Shown here: one piece after another, positions 3,265 through 51,789 of the stretch
Layout: each line of letters starts with the position of its first letter
How positions within the stretch are numbered: position 1 is the first letter of the stretch
Source of the DNA: Candidatus Woesearchaeota archaeon CG1_02_57_44
GTDB taxonomy: Archaea > Nanobdellota > Nanobdellia > Woesearchaeales > CG1-02-57-44
NCBI GenBank assembly: GCA_001871415.1
Contig: MNWW01000020.1
Span: forward strand, 1 to 51,812
Reading direction: 5' to 3'
Length of the DNA stretch: 51,812 bases
Position numbers and translations under genes: made by a program
Notes under the pieces: generated by a model
What the model saw: only the letters and a program-made list of their open reading frames with translations
What the model was told of the DNA's origin: nothing
The model's database searches: none

Positions 3265-3503
3265 GATTCCCGCAAATTATTCCGTGATTATGAATCTTAC
3301 CCCCCCACGCATACGAAATACGTAATCGTTACGATTGCTCCCCTTGTTTTCACAACACCCCTTAAAGGAAAAACTATATAACCATCTGTCTTTTCGGCAG
3401 ACAGGGTCGATGCAGCTGCACGGTGCTGGCTTTCGCGTCCATTATGTCCGCCGCAAGGCGAGGACGAGCAAGCCAAGGCGCGTGTCGTCCCGGGGGTAAT
3501 CAT

Positions 3504-4559
3504 ATGCCACGAAAGACGCTCGCAAGCTTCAAGGTCGAATATCAGCAGCTCATGAACGAGAAGGGAGATGTCGACGAGAAAGTTGCCGCTATCGATCCAG
3601 AATTCGCCAAGCGCTGCTATGAGCTAATGACACTCGTCAGGGTCTTTGACGCCAAGGCCGTGGCCATGCAGCGCCAGGGCCGCATCGGCACTTACGCGTC
3701 CGTGCTCGGTCAGGAGGCGGCGCAGGTAGGTTCTGCGCTCGCGTTGCAGGAGTCAGACTACCTGCTTCCGACTTACCGGGAGGCAGGAGCGCTCATCGCG
3801 CGCGACAGCCCCATGCATCAGCTGCTCCAGTATTTCGGCGGCGATGAGCGCGGCAGCGCGTACGAGGAAGGCATCAATAATTTTCCCATCGCGATTCCCA
3901 TCAGCAGCCAGATTCCGCACGCGACCGGCATCGGCTGGGCCATGCGCCTGAAGGGCCACAAGGCCGCTGCCTTGGTCTATTTCGGCGACGGCGCGTCCAG
4001 CCGCGGGGACTTTCATGAGGCCATCAACATCGCCGCGGTCATGAAGGCGAATGCCGTGTTCTTCTGCCAGAACAATCAGTATGCTATCTCCCTGCCGCGT
4101 GAGCGCCAGACGCTCGCCGAGTCCATCGCACAGAAGGCCATCAGCTATGGCGTTGAGGGCCTGCAGGTGGACGGCAATGATGTGCTGGGAGTGCATAAGG
4201 CGGTGAGCGACGCGCTGCAGAAGGCCTACACAGGCAAGGGCCCGACCCTGATAGAGGCCTACACCTTCCGCCTGGGGGACCATACGACAAGCGATGACGC
4301 AAAGAAGTATCGCGACCCCAAGCTCGTGGAGCAATGGCAGAAGCGTGACCCGCTCGCGCGCCTGCGCGTCTATCTCAGGCAGAAGATGCTCTGGGACGAG
4401 GACTACGAGAAGTCATTGCTCGAGCGCTGCGCAAAAAAGGTCGAGGACGCCGTGGTCAGGTATGAGTCCACGCCTGCCGCTCCGCTGACCGACATGTTCG
4501 ACTATCACTACGCCCAGCTGCCCCAGAACCTTGCTGAGCAGCGCAGGGAGGTGATGTGA
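3504..4559 (+). CDS. pdhA: Pyruvate/2-oxoacid dehydrogenase E1 alpha subunit
   Basis: TPP-binding GDGASSRGDFHEAINIAAVMKANAVFFCQNNQYAIS; start placed at MPRKTLASF (the listed ORF starts at 3423). Confidence 0.93.
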   Translation: MPRKTLASFKVEYQQLMNEKGDVDEKVAAIDPEFAKRCYELMTLVRVFDAKAVAMQRQGRIGTYASVLGQEAAQVGSALALQESDYLLPTYREAGALIARDSPMHQLLQYFGGDERGSAYEEGINNFPIAIPISSQIPHATGIGWAMRLKGHKAAALVYFGDGASSRGDFHEAINIAAVMKANAVFFCQNNQYAISLPRERQTLAESIAQKAISYGVEGLQVDGNDVLGVHKAVSDALQKAYTGKGPTLIEAYTFRLGDHTTSDDAKKYRDPKLVEQWQKRDPLARLRVYLRQKMLWDEDYEKSLLERCAKKVEDAVVRYESTPAAPLTDMFDYHYAQLPQNLAEQRREVM

Positions 4560-5531
4560 ATGACCGTCATGAACATCCTCGAGGCGGTGCGAGATGGCCT
4601 GCGACAGGAGCTTAAGGCGGATCCTGATGTGGTGCTCTTCGGCGAGGACATCGGCAGAAATGGCGGCGTGTTTCGCACGACCGACGGCCTCTTCGACGAG
4701 TTTCCCGGCAGGGTCATCGACACGCCGTTGGCGGAGCTGGGCATCGTCGCCTCAGCAGTGGGCATGGCCGCCTATGGCATGCGCCCGGTCGTGGAGATAC
4801 AGTTCTCCGGCTTTGTCTATGGCGCCATGGAGCAGCTCATCAGCCACGCCGCGCGCCTCAGGAACCGCACGCGGGGCAAGTTCACCTGCCCGATGGTCCT
4901 GCGCGCGCCCTACAGCGGCGGCATCCGCGCGCTGGAGCATCACAGCGAGTCAATGGAAGCGTTCTATGTGCACACGCAGGGGCTCAAGGTCGTCATCCCC
5001 AGCAATCCCTATGACGCCAAAGGACTGCTCATCGCCGCCATCCGCGACCCTGATCCGGTCATCTTCCTGGAGCCAAAGCGTATCTATCGCGCGGTCAAAG
5101 CAGAGGTTCCAGATGGCTCGTATGTGGTGCCACTGGGTCGCGCGTCCATACTGCGCGAGGGCACCGATATCACCGTGGTCTCGTGGGGGAGCATGATGAA
5201 GTCTGTGCTCGACGCAGCGACCGAGCTGCAGGGAAAGGCGAGCATCGAGGTGCTGGACCTGCGCACGCTCTCTCCGATGGATACGGCGTCGATAATCGCG
5301 AGCGTGGAGAAGACCGGGAGGTTGCTGGTGGTCAGCGAGGAGCCAAGGACGTGCAGTGTCGCTGGCGAGATACTGGCGCAGGTGGCCGAGCGCGCGATGC
5401 TCAGCCTGCAGGCGCCACCGCGGCGCGTGACGGGCTTTGACACCATCATGCCGCTCTACAAGATGGAGAATGATTATATCCCCAGCAAGGACAAGATAAT
5501 GAAGGCGATACTGGACGTGGTGAGCTACTGA
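4560..5531 (+). CDS. pdhB: Pyruvate/2-oxoacid dehydrogenase E1 beta subunit
   Basis: FGEDIGRNGGVFRTTDGL...DTPLAELGIVASAVGMA; directly abuts E1 alpha. Confidence 0.93.
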   Translation: MTVMNILEAVRDGLRQELKADPDVVLFGEDIGRNGGVFRTTDGLFDEFPGRVIDTPLAELGIVASAVGMAAYGMRPVVEIQFSGFVYGAMEQLISHAARLRNRTRGKFTCPMVLRAPYSGGIRALEHHSESMEAFYVHTQGLKVVIPSNPYDAKGLLIAAIRDPDPVIFLEPKRIYRAVKAEVPDGSYVVPLGRASILREGTDITVVSWGSMMKSVLDAATELQGKASIEVLDLRTLSPMDTASIIASVEKTGRLLVVSEEPRTCSVAGEILAQVAERAMLSLQAPPRRVTGFDTIMPLYKMENDYIPSKDKIMKAILDVVSY

Positions 5532-7060
5532 TGGCGTATGAATTCGTGTTCCCGGACGTCGGTGAGGGCATCCCTGAGGGGATGCTCAAGGAATGGAAAG
5601 TCAATGTAGGAGACAAGGTCTCGGCTGATGAGACGCTCTGCATGGTCGAGACCGACAAGGCGGTGGTGGAGATGCCCAGCCCCCGGGCAGGTGTGATACT
5701 CAAGGTATTCCATGCCGCTGGCGAGATAATCAAGGTCGGCGAGATACTGGCCATCATCGGCGAGGAAGGTGAATCGGTCCAGAGCGCCACGGGCGAGAGG
5801 AGCGCGTCGACCGCTTCAGCGACAGCAACCGCGACAGCAACCGTGGCCAAGGACGCGAAGGGACCGCGATCCGAGGACGCGGCGTCTGCAGGAAAACCTG
5901 GTGCTGGCGAAGCAGAGCATTACACCGGAAGCGTCGTCGGCAAGCTCGAGGAAGCGTCTGAATCCATGAAGGACGTGCCGCGCGACGCGCAGCAGTCATC
6001 GGCTCCGGCAGACGGCGTGAAGGCGACCCTGCTCGTGCGAAAGCTCGCGCAGGCCATGGGCGTCGATATCAGCAAGGTCAAGGGCACAGGTCCGCAGGGG
6101 CGCATCACTGAGGATGATGTGAAGGCCGCAGTCGGCAGGGAGCCGACACCTGGCGGGCCATCCTCGTCAAGCGCGGCATCGCCAGCAGCGGCTTCGCCGT
6201 CGACCTCCGTAGCTTCTTCAGCGTCGGCGTCCGCAGCATCCGTCTCCGCGTCAGCGTCTGCAGCGACGCAGCCCGCCAAGCCCGCAATCAAGCGCAAGTA
6301 TGATATGTGGGGCTATATCGACCGTCAGCCGTTCAAGGGCATCCGCAAGACCATAGCGACGCGTATGCTCCAGAGCCAGAGCGAGAACGCGCCCGTGACC
6401 TACCATGTCAGTGTCAATGCGGGCAACCTGGTCCTGCTGCGCGAGAAGGAGAAGAAGAGGGCGGCGGAGCAGGGCATCAAGCTCACGTATCTCGCCTACA
6501 TCGTCAAGGCCGTGGCCCTTGCGGTGCTTGGCCATACCGCGGTCAACAGCAGTCTGGTCGACGATGAGATACTACTCAAGAAATATGCCAACGTCGGCAT
6601 CGCGGTTGATACTGAACACGGCCTGTATGTCCCGGTGATAAAGCGCGCAGAGACGCAGGACGTGCTCGCGATAGCCAAGGAGATATCGCGTCTCGCGGAC
6701 GCGGTCAAGGACAATAAGCTTAATCCCATGGACCTGAAGGGCGGCAGCATCAGCATAACGAACCTTGGCAGCGTCGGGGTAGAGTACTTCACGCCCGTCA
6801 TCAACCCCGGCGAGTGCAGCGTGCTGGGTGTGGGCAGGATGAAGGATGCGCCCGTGCTCGAGCAGGCGGCTGACGGCAAGGGCTCAGGACCAAAGGTGGT
6901 TCCCGGGAGGATATTGCCGCTCTCGCTGACCGCGGACCATCGCATTGTCGACGGCGCTGAGGCGGCGCGCTTCCTCAACGATGTCAAGCGCATGCTTGAG
7001 GATCCAGGCGACGGCTCAGGAAATCCCGACGACTGGCCTGCGAAGAAGGTTGCGGTGTGA
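5531..7060 (+). CDS. pdhC: Dihydrolipoamide acyltransferase E2 (lipoyl domain, peripheral-subunit-binding domain, catalytic domain)
   Basis: Lipoyl ETDKAVVEMPSP; PSBD VRKLAQAMGVDISKVKGTGPQGRITEDDV; Ala/Ser linker; catalytic SLTADHRIVDGAEAARFLND. Confidence 0.95.
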   Translation: MAYEFVFPDVGEGIPEGMLKEWKVNVGDKVSADETLCMVETDKAVVEMPSPRAGVILKVFHAAGEIIKVGEILAIIGEEGESVQSATGERSASTASATATATATVAKDAKGPRSEDAASAGKPGAGEAEHYTGSVVGKLEEASESMKDVPRDAQQSSAPADGVKATLLVRKLAQAMGVDISKVKGTGPQGRITEDDVKAAVGREPTPGGPSSSSAASPAAASPSTSVASSASASAASVSASASAATQPAKPAIKRKYDMWGYIDRQPFKGIRKTIATRMLQSQSENAPVTYHVSVNAGNLVLLREKEKKRAAEQGIKLTYLAYIVKAVALAVLGHTAVNSSLVDDEILLKKYANVGIAVDTEHGLYVPVIKRAETQDVLAIAKEISRLADAVKDNKLNPMDLKGGSISITNLGSVGVEYFTPVINPGECSVLGVGRMKDAPVLEQAADGKGSGPKVVPGRILPLSLTADHRIVDGAEAARFLNDVKRMLEDPGDGSGNPDDWPAKKVAV

Positions 7061-8796: not shown

Positions 8797-8935
8797 TTAT
8801 TGCAAAGCACGTGGGTTGAATACCCTGTCCTTCAGGACGTGCTATGCAATTCAAAAATCCGCCTGCAATGACGAGGCGTGGCAATACAGCGGCCTTCAGG
8901 CCGCGGTTAGCGCCGAGTGGCGGATTTTTGTTATT
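8797..8935 (+). repeat. Structured dispersed repeat, copy 1
   Basis: Near-identical to 51652-51789; ATTGCAAAGCAC...GTGCTATGCAAT and AAAAATCCGCC...GGCGGATTTTT stems with internal CCTTCAGG hairpins. Confidence 0.85.
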
Positions 8936-9785: not shown

Positions 9786-12700
9786 CTAGCGGATCCGCAG
9801 CGTCGCGCTCTTTCCGCTCCCTTCACGCGTCAGCTTTCCCGCCTTCTCGAGCGAGACCACCGCGTCATGCACCTGTCTCTTCGCTGCGGCGGTGGCAGTC
9901 CTGCCGTAGATGCCAGCAATAACATCGCGTGCAAGGTCCTCTTCGGTCATGCTCATGTTGATGGACAATACATCCTGCACAGCCAGTGCGAGCTCTTCTT
10001 TGGGCACCCATTTGAACGCGCGCTGCTGTTCCGTCGACACTCGTACAACCGGCGCGGTGTCGCCGCGCAGCCATACAGAGTGTCCCGAGCGTTGCGCGCC
10101 CATGCGCCGGAGCGTATCCTTGAGCGCTGCCCGCGCAACCTGCGTATTCGCGACGCCAAAGGCACCTCGCACGCGGGAGAGCAGATATTCCTCGTGCACG
10201 ATTCCCTCAGTTTCCAGCACCTGACGCATCACCGCTCCAGACCGTTCAGCAAATCGTGCTTTACCATATCGGGGCAACCTGGCTTGCTGATAGGAGCTGT
10301 AGCGCTCGCGAAGAGGGATCTCCGAGAAGGTCTTGACACTGCGAACCTTCGCGAAGCCGTCCTTGCCAGTGGGGTGTTCTGCTGCATCATCTTTCGATGC
10401 CTCGGCGGTCTGCCGTCTGCCTAAGGATTCCTTGACGCTATCCATCACATGCTCGCGCGAGACGATCCAGTCCTCGCTGTACACGCGGTATAGCGTCCAA
10501 CCCAGCGAGAGCAGCAGCTCATGCCTGACCTTGTCGCGGTCCCGCGCCAATGGCGCAGCGCGGTAGAAGCTGCCATCGCACTCCACGCCAAGAACGTAGC
10601 TGTCGCCTTTCTTATCCTTGAGCGCGAAGTCCAGCCGGTAGCCGCTGCGCCCGACGAGCGTGTCGATCTGATACTGCCTGCGCAGAGCATCATGCACGCT
10701 CTGCTGGAAGTCGTCGAGCAGGAGCGTATCGTCAGTTCTTACACCGTCTCCACGCGTATGCGTCGCTATGCGCTGATGCGCAGCGACTGCACCTCCATGC
10801 CTGACCTGATGCGCGTACGCGAGATAATCATGCAGCACCTTCGGGCCTTGTCCTTTGGCGTGCGCGAGATCCTGCGGCGAAAGCCCGGTGACCATGATGG
10901 TCTTGACCCGCGCCCTGGTCACGGCGACATTCAGCCGCTTGTAGCCGCCTTCCTGATTGAGGGGTCCGAAGTTGAGCGTCAATCGTCCTGCCGCGTCATG
11001 AGCGTAGCCTACGCTGATGATGATGATGTCGCGCTCATCGCCTTGTACCGTCTCCAGGTTCTTGATGAAGGGCTCTTCCGACGATGGATCGATGCTCTCA
11101 TCAAGCGTGACGCCCCTTGCCTCAAGAGCTTCTCGTATCGCGCGTTCCTGCTGTACCGAGAACGCGATGAGGCCGATGCTTGCGTTCTTCTTGCGCTCCT
11201 CGATGAACAGCTCTGCCACCTTCTCGGCTTCCCTGAGGTTCATGCGTGAGCCGCCGCGTTCATACGCGCCTTTCACGTGTACCACAGACACTCCGCCTGC
11301 GCCGCCGCACTGCGGGAACGTGATGAGGCGGCTGTTGTAGAACTGTTGGTTGGAGAACGCGATGAGCCGCTCGTCTCTGCTGCGATAGTGCCAGAGCAAG
11401 GAGAATTCAGGAAATGTCGTCGTGGCTTCGGCCAGGAAGCTGTCCAGGTCATCGATGATTTCTGTCGCGCTGCCAGAACCTGCTCCCGTCGCTATGGTGT
11501 CTTCGTTATCCTTCTGGAAGAAGCTTGTCGGCGGCAGCTGCTGTGTATCCCCCATGATGATGGCTTGCTTTGCCCGCATGAGCGCGGGCAGCGCGTCCTC
11601 AGGCATTATCTGCGAGGCCTCGTCGAAGATGACCATGTCGAACTGTATCTTCTCCGGGTCGATGTACTGGCTGACCGTCAACGGTGACATCATGAAGCAG
11701 GGCTTGAGCGCGAACGCGAGATTGGGCATGCTGGAGAGAAGCGAGCGTATGGGCTTGAGCTTGCGCTTCTTCTCGTGCTCGCGCTTGAGGATAGCCACTT
11801 CAGAGGTGCCGCCGCTGGTGTGATAGTGTTGCTTTGGCTGTGCGGCTTCAATTGTGGCCATGATGCGATAGCGATGCATGTCCCTGACTTTGTGGTCCTC
11901 CTTACGGTAGCGTTCGGCGAGCTCCTTGGGAGCGTTACGCGCGTTTGTGCGCATGACCTGCGCTAGTGCCTGATGATGGTACGCTTTGACAAAGCATGCG
12001 GCGGTCCCTTTTCCAGAAGTGTCTGCTGCCGCGGCATTGACAAACCCTGAAACTTCCGCATCCAGCTTGCCGTAGGTGTCGCGAAACGCGATGCAGTCCG
12101 TCAAGGTGCCAAGCAGGTTCTGGAGCTGGCCAAGTGCAGAACCTGCCGATTTCACGGTAACCAGCGGAAATACTTCTTTGGAAAAGAACCAGTTGACATC
12201 TCCCGCTTTCTGGCGGAATTCACCGACGATGTCCGCGTTCGCCTTGGCAAGGTGCTGGAGGATGGCGTCAGCGCTGCCGAGCGCGCTTGCCTGCTCCCGC
12301 AGGGCTCCTGCCTTCTCCGCCATGCGATGGTACTTGCCGACGACAGAGGCGCTGGTCGCCTGATAGTGCCTGCTCTTCGCGGACTCCTTGCTGATGTCCT
12401 TCTCGATCTGTCGGTGTTCTTCGAGCAGCGAGAACGCGCGTATCCAGGAGCCGTGGCTCATGCGGCGGATAGCGAATGGTCGCAGAGCCGCGCGGGCTGT
12501 CCGGTACTCGGACGAGAACAGTCTGCGCCACCACGGGCATCGCAGGCCGGAGGGCATCTGCTGTGACAGGAATCGCGTGGTCACCATGCTCAGCAGCGAG
12601 GAGCGTAGCGCGGCCTTGCGCTCGTGCAGGGCGTGTAGTCGCGCCAGCCGTGGCTGCTCGTCAGAAATGTTGGTCAGCAGCCAATGCGGTGCCCGTAGGG

Positions 12701-14273
12701 CCTGTAGCTCTCTGCTGATGGACGCGAGCGCCTCCAGTTGGGCAAACGTCGTCGCTTTGCAGGGTAGCCCCTCAATGAACGTGGCAAGCGAACGAAGCGC
12801 CTGTGCAGCGGACGCGAGCGCGTGCTGCATACCGCTCTCGATGCCGCGTCCGCCTTTCTTGAAATGCCAGTAGGGGTTTTCGAATGGGACGCCGATCCGC
12901 TGCATGATCTCGTCGAGCAAGCGCACCTGCTCGAGCATCTGGGCGAATCCGGAAGCGTCGAGTTTGAGCGTACTGGTGAGTGGCTGCTCGATAAGATGGA
13001 CGTGTTCGCGTACCGCGAGGGATCCTCGGAGCTCATAGACCGAGATGTTCCAAGGTTTGCGTGGCTCGCACAGCCACTGGTAGTATTCATTCAGTTCCTT
13101 GGCGAGCCCTTCGTAGGGCGCGAAGGAGTAGCGCATGGCATCATCAGGTATCCTCGGTGACGTGAGCAGCTCCTGCATGAGCTGCTCGATGACGGTCTTT
13201 TTCTGCTCCTTGTAGTTGTGCAGGTTCAGGCAATAGCGTCCCAGCCCTGCCTGTTCCAGGCGCTGGTGCACGACATTAAGCGCCGCCATCTTCTGGCTGA
13301 CAAAGAGGACCTTCTTGCCTTGCAGCATGCTGGCGGCGATGATGTTGGCGACAGTCTGGCTCTTGCCTGTGCCAGGAGGTCCTTGCAGGACGAAGGACAA
13401 TCCTGCTTTGGCCATCTCGATGGCGTGCTTCTGGCTGCTGTCTGCCGGTAGCAGATCGATGCTCTCATCGCGCACCAATGGCTGCTTTTGTTCAAGGCCT
13501 TCTCCTGCGAAGGCCCTGACCAACGGATTCTTCGCGGCGAGTTGCGCGTGCGTGGTGAGGTCGTCGACCATGATGTGCTTCTGGTAGCTGAAGATGTCGA
13601 TGAGCACGCTCTGCTCGAGCGTGCCGTCCAGCGGCGCTATGGCCTTGGCTACAGCGTCGAGATACGCGACCGGGCCGTCGCCCTGCTGCGGCGCATAGGC
13701 GGGCAAGGTGATGCGATGCTCATGGTGGAGTTTCTCACGCAGCGCTGGATTCAGGCCAAGCTCCTCGACAGGCGTGAAGCTGATATCGATGCTATCCTTC
13801 TCGGGGCTACCGCGCGAAAGTTCCAGGGGCTGCAGCAGCACAGGCATCTGCTGCTCTTTGATGGTCACCATGCCGACAGCCGCGAAGCACGTTGAGAGGC
13901 CTTGCTCCTGGAAGTGATCACGTGCTTTCAGGTACAGCCTGGAGACGCGCTTGCGAAGCGCTGCTTGAGCAGGATCATCTGTGTCCTCATTCGTCCGCCT
14001 GTCACCAGAGGATTCCCCTGTTCTTGCTGTCTCCTGCACGACCCATCGTCTGGCCTTGCGCCTTTGCGCGACGCGGATAGGTGTCTCCTGCTCCAGCTCT
14101 TTGATGGCGCCTGCGAGATCAGGGCTGCTGATGCGAAGCGTGCGGGACGTCTCGTGGTAATTGACCAGGTTGTTCCTGCCAGATAGGTCAAGCAGCCGCC
14201 GTTTCCAGTGCTCCAGCTTCTGCGCTGTCTGCGTACTCTGTCCACTGTGCGTGCCCTGCATAACGTGACCCAT
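9786..14273 (-). CDS. Large SF1-type helicase with N-terminal DUF4011-like region and C-terminal Vsr/MTES_1575-like endonuclease domain
   Basis: N-term LEHWKRRLLDLSGRNNLVNYHET; Walker A LQGPPGTGKSQTVANII; IFDEASQIMPEDALPALMRAKQAIIMGDTQQLPP; NVAVTRARVKTIMVTG; C-term LDFALKDKKGDSYVLGVECDGSFYRAAPLARDRDKVRHELLLSLGWTLYRVYSEDW. Confidence 0.9.
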   Translation of the reverse strand: MGHVMQGTHSGQSTQTAQKLEHWKRRLLDLSGRNNLVNYHETSRTLRISSPDLAGAIKELEQETPIRVAQRRKARRWVVQETARTGESSGDRRTNEDTDDPAQAALRKRVSRLYLKARDHFQEQGLSTCFAAVGMVTIKEQQMPVLLQPLELSRGSPEKDSIDISFTPVEELGLNPALREKLHHEHRITLPAYAPQQGDGPVAYLDAVAKAIAPLDGTLEQSVLIDIFSYQKHIMVDDLTTHAQLAAKNPLVRAFAGEGLEQKQPLVRDESIDLLPADSSQKHAIEMAKAGLSFVLQGPPGTGKSQTVANIIAASMLQGKKVLFVSQKMAALNVVHQRLEQAGLGRYCLNLHNYKEQKKTVIEQLMQELLTSPRIPDDAMRYSFAPYEGLAKELNEYYQWLCEPRKPWNISVYELRGSLAVREHVHLIEQPLTSTLKLDASGFAQMLEQVRLLDEIMQRIGVPFENPYWHFKKGGRGIESGMQHALASAAQALRSLATFIEGLPCKATTFAQLEALASISRELQALRAPHWLLTNISDEQPRLARLHALHERKAALRSSLLSMVTTRFLSQQMPSGLRCPWWRRLFSSEYRTARAALRPFAIRRMSHGSWIRAFSLLEEHRQIEKDISKESAKSRHYQATSASVVGKYHRMAEKAGALREQASALGSADAILQHLAKANADIVGEFRQKAGDVNWFFSKEVFPLVTVKSAGSALGQLQNLLGTLTDCIAFRDTYGKLDAEVSGFVNAAAADTSGKGTAACFVKAYHHQALAQVMRTNARNAPKELAERYRKEDHKVRDMHRYRIMATIEAAQPKQHYHTSGGTSEVAILKREHEKKRKLKPIRSLLSSMPNLAFALKPCFMMSPLTVSQYIDPEKIQFDMVIFDEASQIMPEDALPALMRAKQAIIMGDTQQLPPTSFFQKDNEDTIATGAGSGSATEIIDDLDSFLAEATTTFPEFSLLWHYRSRDERLIAFSNQQFYNSRLITFPQCGGAGGVSVVHVKGAYERGGSRMNLREAEKVAELFIEERKKNASIGLIAFSVQQERAIREALEARGVTLDESIDPSSEEPFIKNLETVQGDERDIIIISVGYAHDAAGRLTLNFGPLNQEGGYKRLNVAVTRARVKTIMVTGLSPQDLAHAKGQGPKVLHDYLAYAHQVRHGGAVAAHQRIATHTRGDGVRTDDTLLLDDFQQSVHDALRRQYQIDTLVGRSGYRLDFALKDKKGDSYVLGVECDGSFYRAAPLARDRDKVRHELLLSLGWTLYRVYSEDWIVSREHVMDSVKESLGRRQTAEASKDDAAEHPTGKDGFAKVRSVKTFSEIPLRERYSSYQQARLPRYGKARFAERSGAVMRQVLETEGIVHEEYLLSRVRGAFGVANTQVARAALKDTLRRMGAQRSGHSVWLRGDTAPVVRVSTEQQRAFKWVPKEELALAVQDVLSINMSMTEEDLARDVIAGIYGRTATAAAKRQVHDAVVSLEKAGKLTREGSGKSATLRIR

Positions 14274-15429: not shown

Positions 15430-16245
15430 TCATCTCGAGAAATTCCATCCCCTGTCGCGGTAGCGTGACTTCGCCAGCGCTTCTGCCCGCGAGAGCTCTT
15501 GCGCTGTCCACGAACCTATCTGGCATTGCTTGTCTCGCGTCAGTCCTATCAGCAAGGCTCGGGTCACATCCTCTCTGCTGACCGCATCCACGTCGATATG
15601 GTCAAGCACGCGCGTGACGCGTTTCTTGACTGAGGTGATGAGCTTGTCCGCTATCTTCTCCTGCCCGACGCGCAGCAGCGAGAACATCCTGTCCACATCG
15701 ACGTCGTAGAGGAGGGTGCCATGCTGCAGCAGCACGCCGCCGCGACGTGTCTGCGCGTTGCCCGATATCTTCTTGTCCCCGACCATGATGTCATTGATGG
15801 GAGAGAACTGAGCGCTGATGCCCAGCTCTGCAAGACCATCGATGACCCATCCGCAGATGAGCTGGTAGGATTCTGTGATGCCGGAGAACCACGACGATGG
15901 CGCGATGACGCTGTAGGTTATCTCGCCGTCATGGTCGTGGTACACAGCGCCGCCGCCGGTGCGCCGTCGCACATAGTCGACGCCGAGCGCGTCGCAGCGT
16001 TCAGTGGCGATCTCTGCGCGCATGCTCTGGAAGCATCCGATGCTGACCGCGCTGGGCTGCCAGCGATAGAGACGGATGGTCGCGATGCCTCCTGCCGCGA
16101 CCTGTTCGCTGCAGGCTTCATCAAGCGCCATGTTCAGGAACGCGTCATGGGTCTCCAGTGGTATGATACGCCAGGGTCCGCTGCTCATGGCGGAGGTCAC
16201 GTCCTGGGAGTCATGCGATCGTGGGTTGTGTTCTAGAGCGTTCAT
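15430..16245 (-). CDS. lplA: Lipoate-protein ligase A, N-terminal catalytic part
   Basis: RLYRWQPSAVSIGCFQS; RRRTGGGAVYHDHDGEITYSV; GDKKISGNAQTRRGGVLLQHGTLL. Confidence 0.9.
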   Translation of the reverse strand: MNALEHNPRSHDSQDVTSAMSSGPWRIIPLETHDAFLNMALDEACSEQVAAGGIATIRLYRWQPSAVSIGCFQSMRAEIATERCDALGVDYVRRRTGGGAVYHDHDGEITYSVIAPSSWFSGITESYQLICGWVIDGLAELGISAQFSPINDIMVGDKKISGNAQTRRGGVLLQHGTLLYDVDVDRMFSLLRVGQEKIADKLITSVKKRVTRVLDHIDVDAVSREDVTRALLIGLTRDKQCQIGSWTAQELSRAEALAKSRYRDRGWNFSR

Positions 16246-16613
16246 CAGAAATCCTCCTTCGCGTGCGCAGCGCCGTGCGCATGGTTTCCGCTGGCATCGT
16301 CTATCGACGCCAGCACGAACCACTCAGCGATGGCTTCAGGAGTGATGCCTACCATGGTGATGTTCTCCTCTTGGGCTATGCGGGCAAGCGACGCCCTGAT
16401 GGGTGCGACAGCGTCTGAGGAGATGGCGCTATGACCCTTGTCGTGTGCGTCAACCAGAATCGTGCTGAGAGCGTCCTCCAGCAAGGGCAGCTTCTCTTCA
16501 GGGTGCAGGAAGAAATCTCCTGTGATAATCGCTCTGCCCTGCTCGATCGTCACCGTCAGCAGCTTGCCGCCAGGAACCTTACGGGTATGCTGTCCCATGC
16601 AGGGGGATGCCAC
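16245..16613 (-). CDS. lplB: Lipoate-protein ligase accessory subunit (LplB-like)
   Basis: KVPGGKLLTVTIEQGRAIITGDFFLHPEEKLPLLEDALS; TGATG overlap with lplA. Confidence 0.85.
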   Translation of the reverse strand: MASPCMGQHTRKVPGGKLLTVTIEQGRAIITGDFFLHPEEKLPLLEDALSTILVDAHDKGHSAISSDAVAPIRASLARIAQEENITMVGITPEAIAEWFVLASIDDASGNHAHGAAHAKEDF

Positions 16614-25891: not shown

Positions 25892-26075
25892 TTCTATTCC
25901 TGCTGTTCGCTGTAGCTATTCTTGCGCTTGGTGGCTTCCGGGTCCAGGAATCCTGCAGAGGATTTTTTGTCTGTCCAGGCAACCGCACTTCTCTCTTCGG
26001 ATCTCATCATCTTGGACATTATAAATGACCTGGCAAATCATTATATTGTCTGGATCATCCCAACAATGATATGAT

Positions 26076-26209
26076 TTCTTGCGATGGGTCCATACCCTGC
26101 CCTTGAGGGCGCACCATCGCAAGGACCAGAAATCCGCGTGCAGCAGCGAGGCGCGTCATACCGCGGCCTTCAGGCCGCGGTCAGCGTCGAGCAGCGGATT
26201 TCTGATTCC
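26076..26209 (+). repeat. Structured dispersed repeat, copy 2 (diverged)
   Basis: CTTGCGATGG...CCATCGCAAG stem, GCCCTTGAGGGC hairpin, AGAAATCCGC...GCGGATTTCT stem, CCGCGGCCTTCAGGCCGCGG hairpin. Confidence 0.75.
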
Positions 26210-51651: not shown

Positions 51652-51789
51652 TTATTGCAAAGCACGGGGTTGAATACCCCGTCCTTCAGGACGTGCTTTG
51701 CAATTCAAAAATCCGCCTGCAATGACGAGGCGCGGTAATACCGCGGCCTTCAGGCCGCGGTTAGCGCCGAGTGGTGGATTTTTGTTATT
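51652..51789 (+). repeat. Structured dispersed repeat, copy 3
   Basis: ATTGCAAAGCAC-GGGGTTGAATACCCC-GTCCTTCAGGAC-GTGCTTTGCAAT (perfect 12-bp stem with two inner hairpins), then AAAAATCCGCC...GGTGGATTTTT. Confidence 0.88.

Follow-up and report, generated by a model that had tools for sequence, protein, structure and literature searches.

IS608 of Helicobacter pylori, a member of the IS200/IS605 family, carries tnpA and tnpB, has plain hairpin ends with a guide tetranucleotide 5' of the hairpin, and inserts 3' of a tetranucleotide (CL TTAC with GL AAAG; right site TCAA with guide GAAT; PMC5934647). In its crystal structure A+16 pairs with T-3 and A+17 with T-4, A+18 being the next base, and its TnpA disfavours purines at +1 (PMC5934647). 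The PATEs of Haloquadratum walsbyi are too short for a transposase, have near-terminal palindromes akin to IS605-type ends and neither terminal inverted repeats nor target duplication, and form homogeneous high-copy families, some of them only fused ends (PMC3119063). REPs and REPINs, which are likewise small, palindromic and multicopy and are linked to a Y1 enzyme, the RAYT (TnpA_REP), are defined by a conserved GTAG or CGTC tag.

Here we analyse an element of which three copies lie on a 51,812-nucleotide stretch of DNA from Candidatus Woesearchaeota archaeon CG1_02_57_44 (the window, by which we mean this whole stretch). It shares the listed features with the PATEs, probably including the lack of target duplication as judged from its flanks, but each of its ends is enclosed by a long outer stem to give a three-way junction, its fused left and right ends make up a nearly constant unit of ~135 bases found order-wide, and its guides and cleavage sites show a directly readable switching between TTAT, TTAC and TGAT. 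Like IS608 it has a guide 5' of the hairpin, and the TTAC/AAAG pair of IS608 is that of one of its subfamilies; unlike IS608 it has neither tnpA nor tnpB, adds the outer stems, and usually has left and right sites that are alike. The GTAG or CGTC tag is absent, and we have for this reason dropped the label 'REP-like' used in a preliminary description of this DNA.

Judging from sequence, we give a probability of roughly 0.87 to reading the element as a minimal, non-autonomous single-strand transposable element of the IS200/IS605 type (a PATE) whose two ends are fused. The preliminary description had likewise proposed a non-autonomous, PATE-like element of single-stranded DNA with IS200/IS605-type ends, and this proposal is now strongly backed by guide/site covariation, by matching transposase-bearing elements in the order and by recent near-identical copies. 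We found no earlier description of the element in the open literature, which is no proof of absence. If the reading is right, the family offers more than a hundred natural elements with repeatedly switched DNA-guided target choice, it would make the IS608 pairing rule, so far drawn from crystals and engineering, readable from evolution, and it is apparently widespread in a poorly known order of small-genome archaea, probably DPANN and, from its small genomes and very many families, Woesearchaeales-like.

Copies in the window and their dispersal in the source genome

All three copies lie where the preliminary description had placed them; its bounds were slightly off, and the mobile unit is best delimited as in Table 1. 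Across 138 bases copies 1 and 3 have 95% identity, beyond which they are unrelated; copy 2 shares 74% identity with these two. The cleavage tetranucleotide (TTAT, TGAT and TTAT in copies 1, 2 and 3) is found directly left of each unit and again at its right end, and the units, with their 131-134 bases, are too small for a transposase gene.

Table 1. Features of the three copies, in window positions.
Feature	Position	Strand	Basis
Copy 1, TTAT/AATA subfamily, body and right cleavage tetranucleotide	8801-8934	+	95% identity to copy 3; covariance model R1, 140 bits
Copy 1 left cleavage tetranucleotide TTAT	8797-8800	+	sequence
Copy 1 left-end guide AATA, fits TTAT under IS608 scheme	8819-8822	+	sequence and guide/site code
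Copy 1 right-end guide AATA	8883-8886	+	sequence and guide/site code
Copy 1 right cleavage tetranucleotide TTAT	8931-8934	+	sequence
Copy 2, divergent TGAT/CATA subfamily	26076-26206	+	sequence; R1, 94.6 bits
Copy 2 cleavage tetranucleotides TGAT	left 26072-26075, right 26203-26206	+	sequence
Copy 2 left-end guide CATA; C at guide position 1 fits G of TGAT	26091-26094	+	sequence
Copy 2 right-end guide CATA	26157-26160	+	sequence
Copy 3, TTAT/AATA subfamily	51656-51788	+	sequence; identical or near-identical copies elsewhere in bin
Copy 3 cleavage tetranucleotides TTAT	left 51652-51655, right 51785-51788	+	sequence
Copy 3 domain 1, putative left end	51654-51704	+	folding, covariation
Copy 3 domain 1 outer stem ATTGCAAAGCAC/GTGCTTTGCAAT	within 51654-51704	+	folding, covariation
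Copy 3 domain 1 helper hairpin, guide AATA in loop	guide 51673-51676	+	folding, covariation
Copy 3 domain 1 hairpin GTCCTTCAGGAC	51681-51692	+	folding, covariation
Copy 3 domain 2, putative right end	51706-51784	+	folding, covariation
Copy 3 domain 2 outer stem CAAAAATCCGCC/GGTGGATTTTTG, inner stem GGCGC/GCGCC	within 51706-51784	+	folding, covariation
Copy 3 domain 2 guide AATA	51737-51740	+	folding, covariation
Copy 3 domain 2 hairpin ACCGCGGCC-TTCA-GGCCGCGGT	within 51706-51784	+	folding, covariation

The preliminary description had expected further copies. Indeed, a DNA search of the source bin (1.53 Mb in 77 contigs, 82% complete) found the element at about 40 places with E < 1e-43, the number of distinct sites being smaller because some contigs overlap (e.g. 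C76 and C15). Most copies in the bin are 97-100% identical and have flanks unlike one another, pointing to recent spread. Many sit at contig ends, as expected since repeats break assembly. The flanks part sharply just 3' of the right-end TTAT and 5' of the left-end TTAT; across the subfamilies, left flanks end in TTAT, TTAC or TGAT, and the right ends close with that same tetranucleotide. In the 22 distinct right flanks of the source genome (31 sources counted), the position following the right cleavage site holds T 15 times, C 7 times and never a purine, and a pyrimidine at +1 in all 22 is what an IS608-like enzyme would prefer; this preference is weaker when all genomes are pooled. No exact empty site was found in congeners, where synteny was too poor, and at the one orthologous place that lacks the element the surroundings differ too. 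The subfamily of copy 2 has more copies in the bin and in a relative (G017).

Guides, cleavage sites and a proposed mechanism

What weighs decisively for the fused-end reading is a guide/site code. The tetranucleotide before each hairpin goes with the one at the terminus: AATA and AAAA with TTAT, AAAG with TTAC and CAAA with TGAT. When 37 aligned elements are placed side by side, those bounded by TTAT carry AATA or AAAA and those bounded by TTAC carry AAAG. At the right end of 120 copies we counted 43 AATA-TTAT, 39 AAAA-TTAT, 16 AAAG-TTAC and 7 CAAA-TGAT combinations; several of the remaining ones proved on inspection to be register shifts, e.g. those of window copy 2 and its relatives in G017, which have CATA with TGAT at both ends. 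Of 16 position pairs, guide 4 with site 4 has the highest mutual information (0.47 bits) and guide 1 with site 2 the next highest (0.32 bits), related copies among those counted being non-independent; both pairs stay on top after collapse by genome and by family. Taking A+16 of IS608 as guide position 1, one expects guide1-site2 and guide2-site1 to pair, the latter being nearly invariant at the right end. The guide4-site4 pair presumably corresponds to that of G with C-1 in IS608. TTAC with AAAG is found in seven families, and the switch thus recurs. Two elements of one genome (G055) have the left site ATAC; in one of them it stands opposite the guide ATAG, with a right site TTAC opposite AAAG, and in the other the guide has lost the match. 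The guide/site covariation read from these sequences is in agreement with the IS608 pairing scheme.

For the fused-end element we propose the following course. Domain 1 would serve as left end and domain 2 as right end, with no gene in between. With a Y1 HUH transposase (TnpA) provided in trans and bound to both hairpins of the top strand in its single-stranded form, the guide 5' of each hairpin would pair with the terminal tetranucleotide that serves as cleavage site, and the cut would fall 3' of TTAT (of TTAC or TGAT in the other subfamilies). The element would leave, presumably as a single-strand circle, after which the left guide would select a new TTAT, preferably with a pyrimidine next to it, and the lagging-strand template would probably be used. 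Against this course, the left cleavage site and the outer stem share two bases, so that the stem would have to open. Speculatively, the outer stems that form the three-way junctions may keep the site close to the guide, or aid hairpin extrusion.

Fold, relatives and competing explanations

Copy 3 folds into two linked three-way junctions, the first of them without an unpaired base, and the hairpins of the element are of the CCTTSAGG type, both as previously described. Compared with dinucleotide shuffles, the single strands of copies 1-3 fold with z of -6.1, -5.6 and -7.9, none of 200 shuffles being as good. An alignment of 36 distinct sequences (about 30 genomes) has 95.4% paired cells, and 44 of its 48 base pairs are altered on both sides (22.8 in shuffles, at most 16 in controls with slid pairing), covariation counts that are inflated by the fitting of this alignment to the structure. 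A structure-free alignment of seven sequences gave 18 pairs altered on both sides, compared with 10.3 when shuffled and at most 4 when slid. G.T exceeds A.C in stem cells by 139 to 61, which points to selection on the given strand, whether as RNA or as single-strand DNA, the asymmetry leaving these two undistinguished.

Among 61 genomes searched at the DNA level, G017 has full-length copies of 72-73% identity and four further genomes have partial matches; all of these genomes belong to other families of the same order. Searching relatives with a covariance model, as the preliminary description had suggested, gave matches in at least 154 of the 362 genomes of the order (model built from seven sequences, matches accepted to E 0.01), a lower bound because the best candidates alone were scored. 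When the phylum was sampled, hits fell inside the order or in six genomes assigned to other orders of the class. Neither viral contigs, searched with three patterns, two of them exact, nor a pattern scan of the genome-contig collection yielded a match. The near-constant unit size over many families may point to an old lineage and not to repeated fresh deletions.

The absence of tnpA and tnpB, noted before for the window, holds bin-wide: neither a Y1 TnpA (PF01797) nor a TnpB zinc-ribbon domain was found in the 82% complete bin. Y1 TnpA (PF01797) is present in G017 and G025, and over the order as a whole 65 of the 154 genomes with the element and 65 of the remaining 208 have it (odds ratio 1.6, p 0.036; p 0.064 among high-quality genomes), a weak link; it is absent from 89 of the 154 positive genomes. 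Where 99% identical copies occur in an assembly without a Y1 gene, as in G245, the gene is either missing from an incomplete assembly, lost or transient, or another enzyme takes its place. In G025, two identical TnpA elements (L066/L067) lie at unrelated sites with TTAT at both sides, AATACC as guide on the left and an outer stem at either end, and other Y1 elements of the order combine TCAT with GATA, TTAT with AATA, and TTAA with AATT. Like the fused-end element, the IS200-like TnpA elements of the order (e.g. L066/L067 in G025, L144 in G352, L141 in G169) have a guide RATA that is followed by CC and a hairpin, and TTAT or TCAT cleavage under the same code, with outer stems in G025; unlike it, they encode a Y1 transposase and differ in their hairpin sequences. 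As to the matching transposase sought in the preliminary description, Y1 elements of the order follow the same code and none of those found has near-identical ends. An automated test on 88 transposase-locus ends recovered the predicted site at 55 of them, compared with 42 for shuffled guides (p 0.002); it is noisy since the hairpin is often misassigned, and the named cases therefore weigh more. A second, divergent Y1 transposase of G017 (L068, G017:C17) has downstream of it a palindrome, CACGGGTCGAGCTCAGAGCGAGACCCGTG, that resembles the domain 2 outer stem and lacks a guide.

The strong covariation, the strand-asymmetric wobble tolerance and the wide distribution, with positive genomes that lack a Y1 transposase, would also suit a family of structured non-coding RNAs (or a mobile RNA gene) whose transcript, with two three-way junctions, acts in the host. 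We consider this quite improbable, because the unpaired guide covaries with a terminal tetranucleotide outside the folded core, as cleavage predicts and an RNA role does not, because there are many copies, recent ones at sites unrelated to each other, and because Rfam holds no match: a scan of the window at gathering threshold gave a tRNA as its sole hit and none on the element, and membership in an Rfam family was rejected. Of the multicopy structured RNA that the preliminary description had offered as an alternative, the covarying structure stands, and an RNA role, though conceivable, is unneeded. Very improbable, in our judgement, is a repeat of the REP/REPIN type that a domesticated RAYT has spread and that serves the host, e.g. 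in transcription termination or mRNA stabilisation. Such a repeat would be short, palindromic and high in copy number, as the element is, and the copies lie mostly near gene ends and have a terminal stem followed by TTTTT, but the hairpin foot carries no GTAG/CGTC and its tags (AATA, AAAA, AAAG, CAAA, CATA) vary with the cleavage site, no transposase gene lies regularly alongside, and the orientation of copies relative to neighbouring genes follows no clear rule.

IS605-type right ends carry hairpins resembling those of the element, as would be expected of an orphan omega-RNA or the right end of a TnpB (IS605/IS1341) element. The probability of this origin is close to nil, however, as the zinc-ribbon domain (PF07282) was found in none of six element-bearing genomes (the source bin and five relatives) and a left end is present besides the right, each with its own guide. 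A classical MITE moved by a DDE transposase was rejected: the element has subterminal imperfect palindromes, terminal inverted repeats are absent, and TTAT or TGAT recurs at both ends in direct orientation. Returning to the fused-end IS200/IS605-type element, it seems on the whole unlikely that the unit, instead of being a by-product of IS deletion, is a long-lived transposon lineage across the order that switches guide and target together and that, in the many genomes without an annotated Y1 transposase, owes its movement to some other enzyme.

Surroundings of the copies

One member of the copy-2 subfamily (L269, G000:C53:81265-81457) has a 57-base insert with two short palindromes between its left and right ends, and L051 (G032) has comparable strings of short palindromes after its domain 1. 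At ten contig ends (L031-L040: C74, C66, C63, C52, C49, C37, C34, C9, C62, C17) an identical stretch of 105 bases lies directly upstream of the element. These bases are the end of an ORF (closing with GAMVLSPETQAEFQRLVEGHRRLLEAIGKL and a stop) whose body is nowhere in the bin and whose 34-residue end belongs to no Pfam family and matches a plasmid by chance only; perhaps it marks a high-copy, unbinned carrier of the element. The contig pairs L003/L005, L006/L028, L018/L025, L010/L026 and L019/L024 have a common right flank and unlike left flanks, probably as overlapping chimeric contig ends, which is the simpler reading, and possibly through recombination at the element.

The window also carries genes for aRF-1 and archaeal IF-2, which mark it as archaeal, and at 9786-14273 it encodes a protein of 1495 residues that combines DUF4011 with helicase and MTES_1575 nuclease domains and is likely involved in defence or nucleic-acid processing. 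A dehydrogenase E1 (3423-7060) and a lipoyl E2 (15430-16323), with a lipoate ligase close by, are genes of a 2-oxoacid dehydrogenase complex, which is notable given the small genome.
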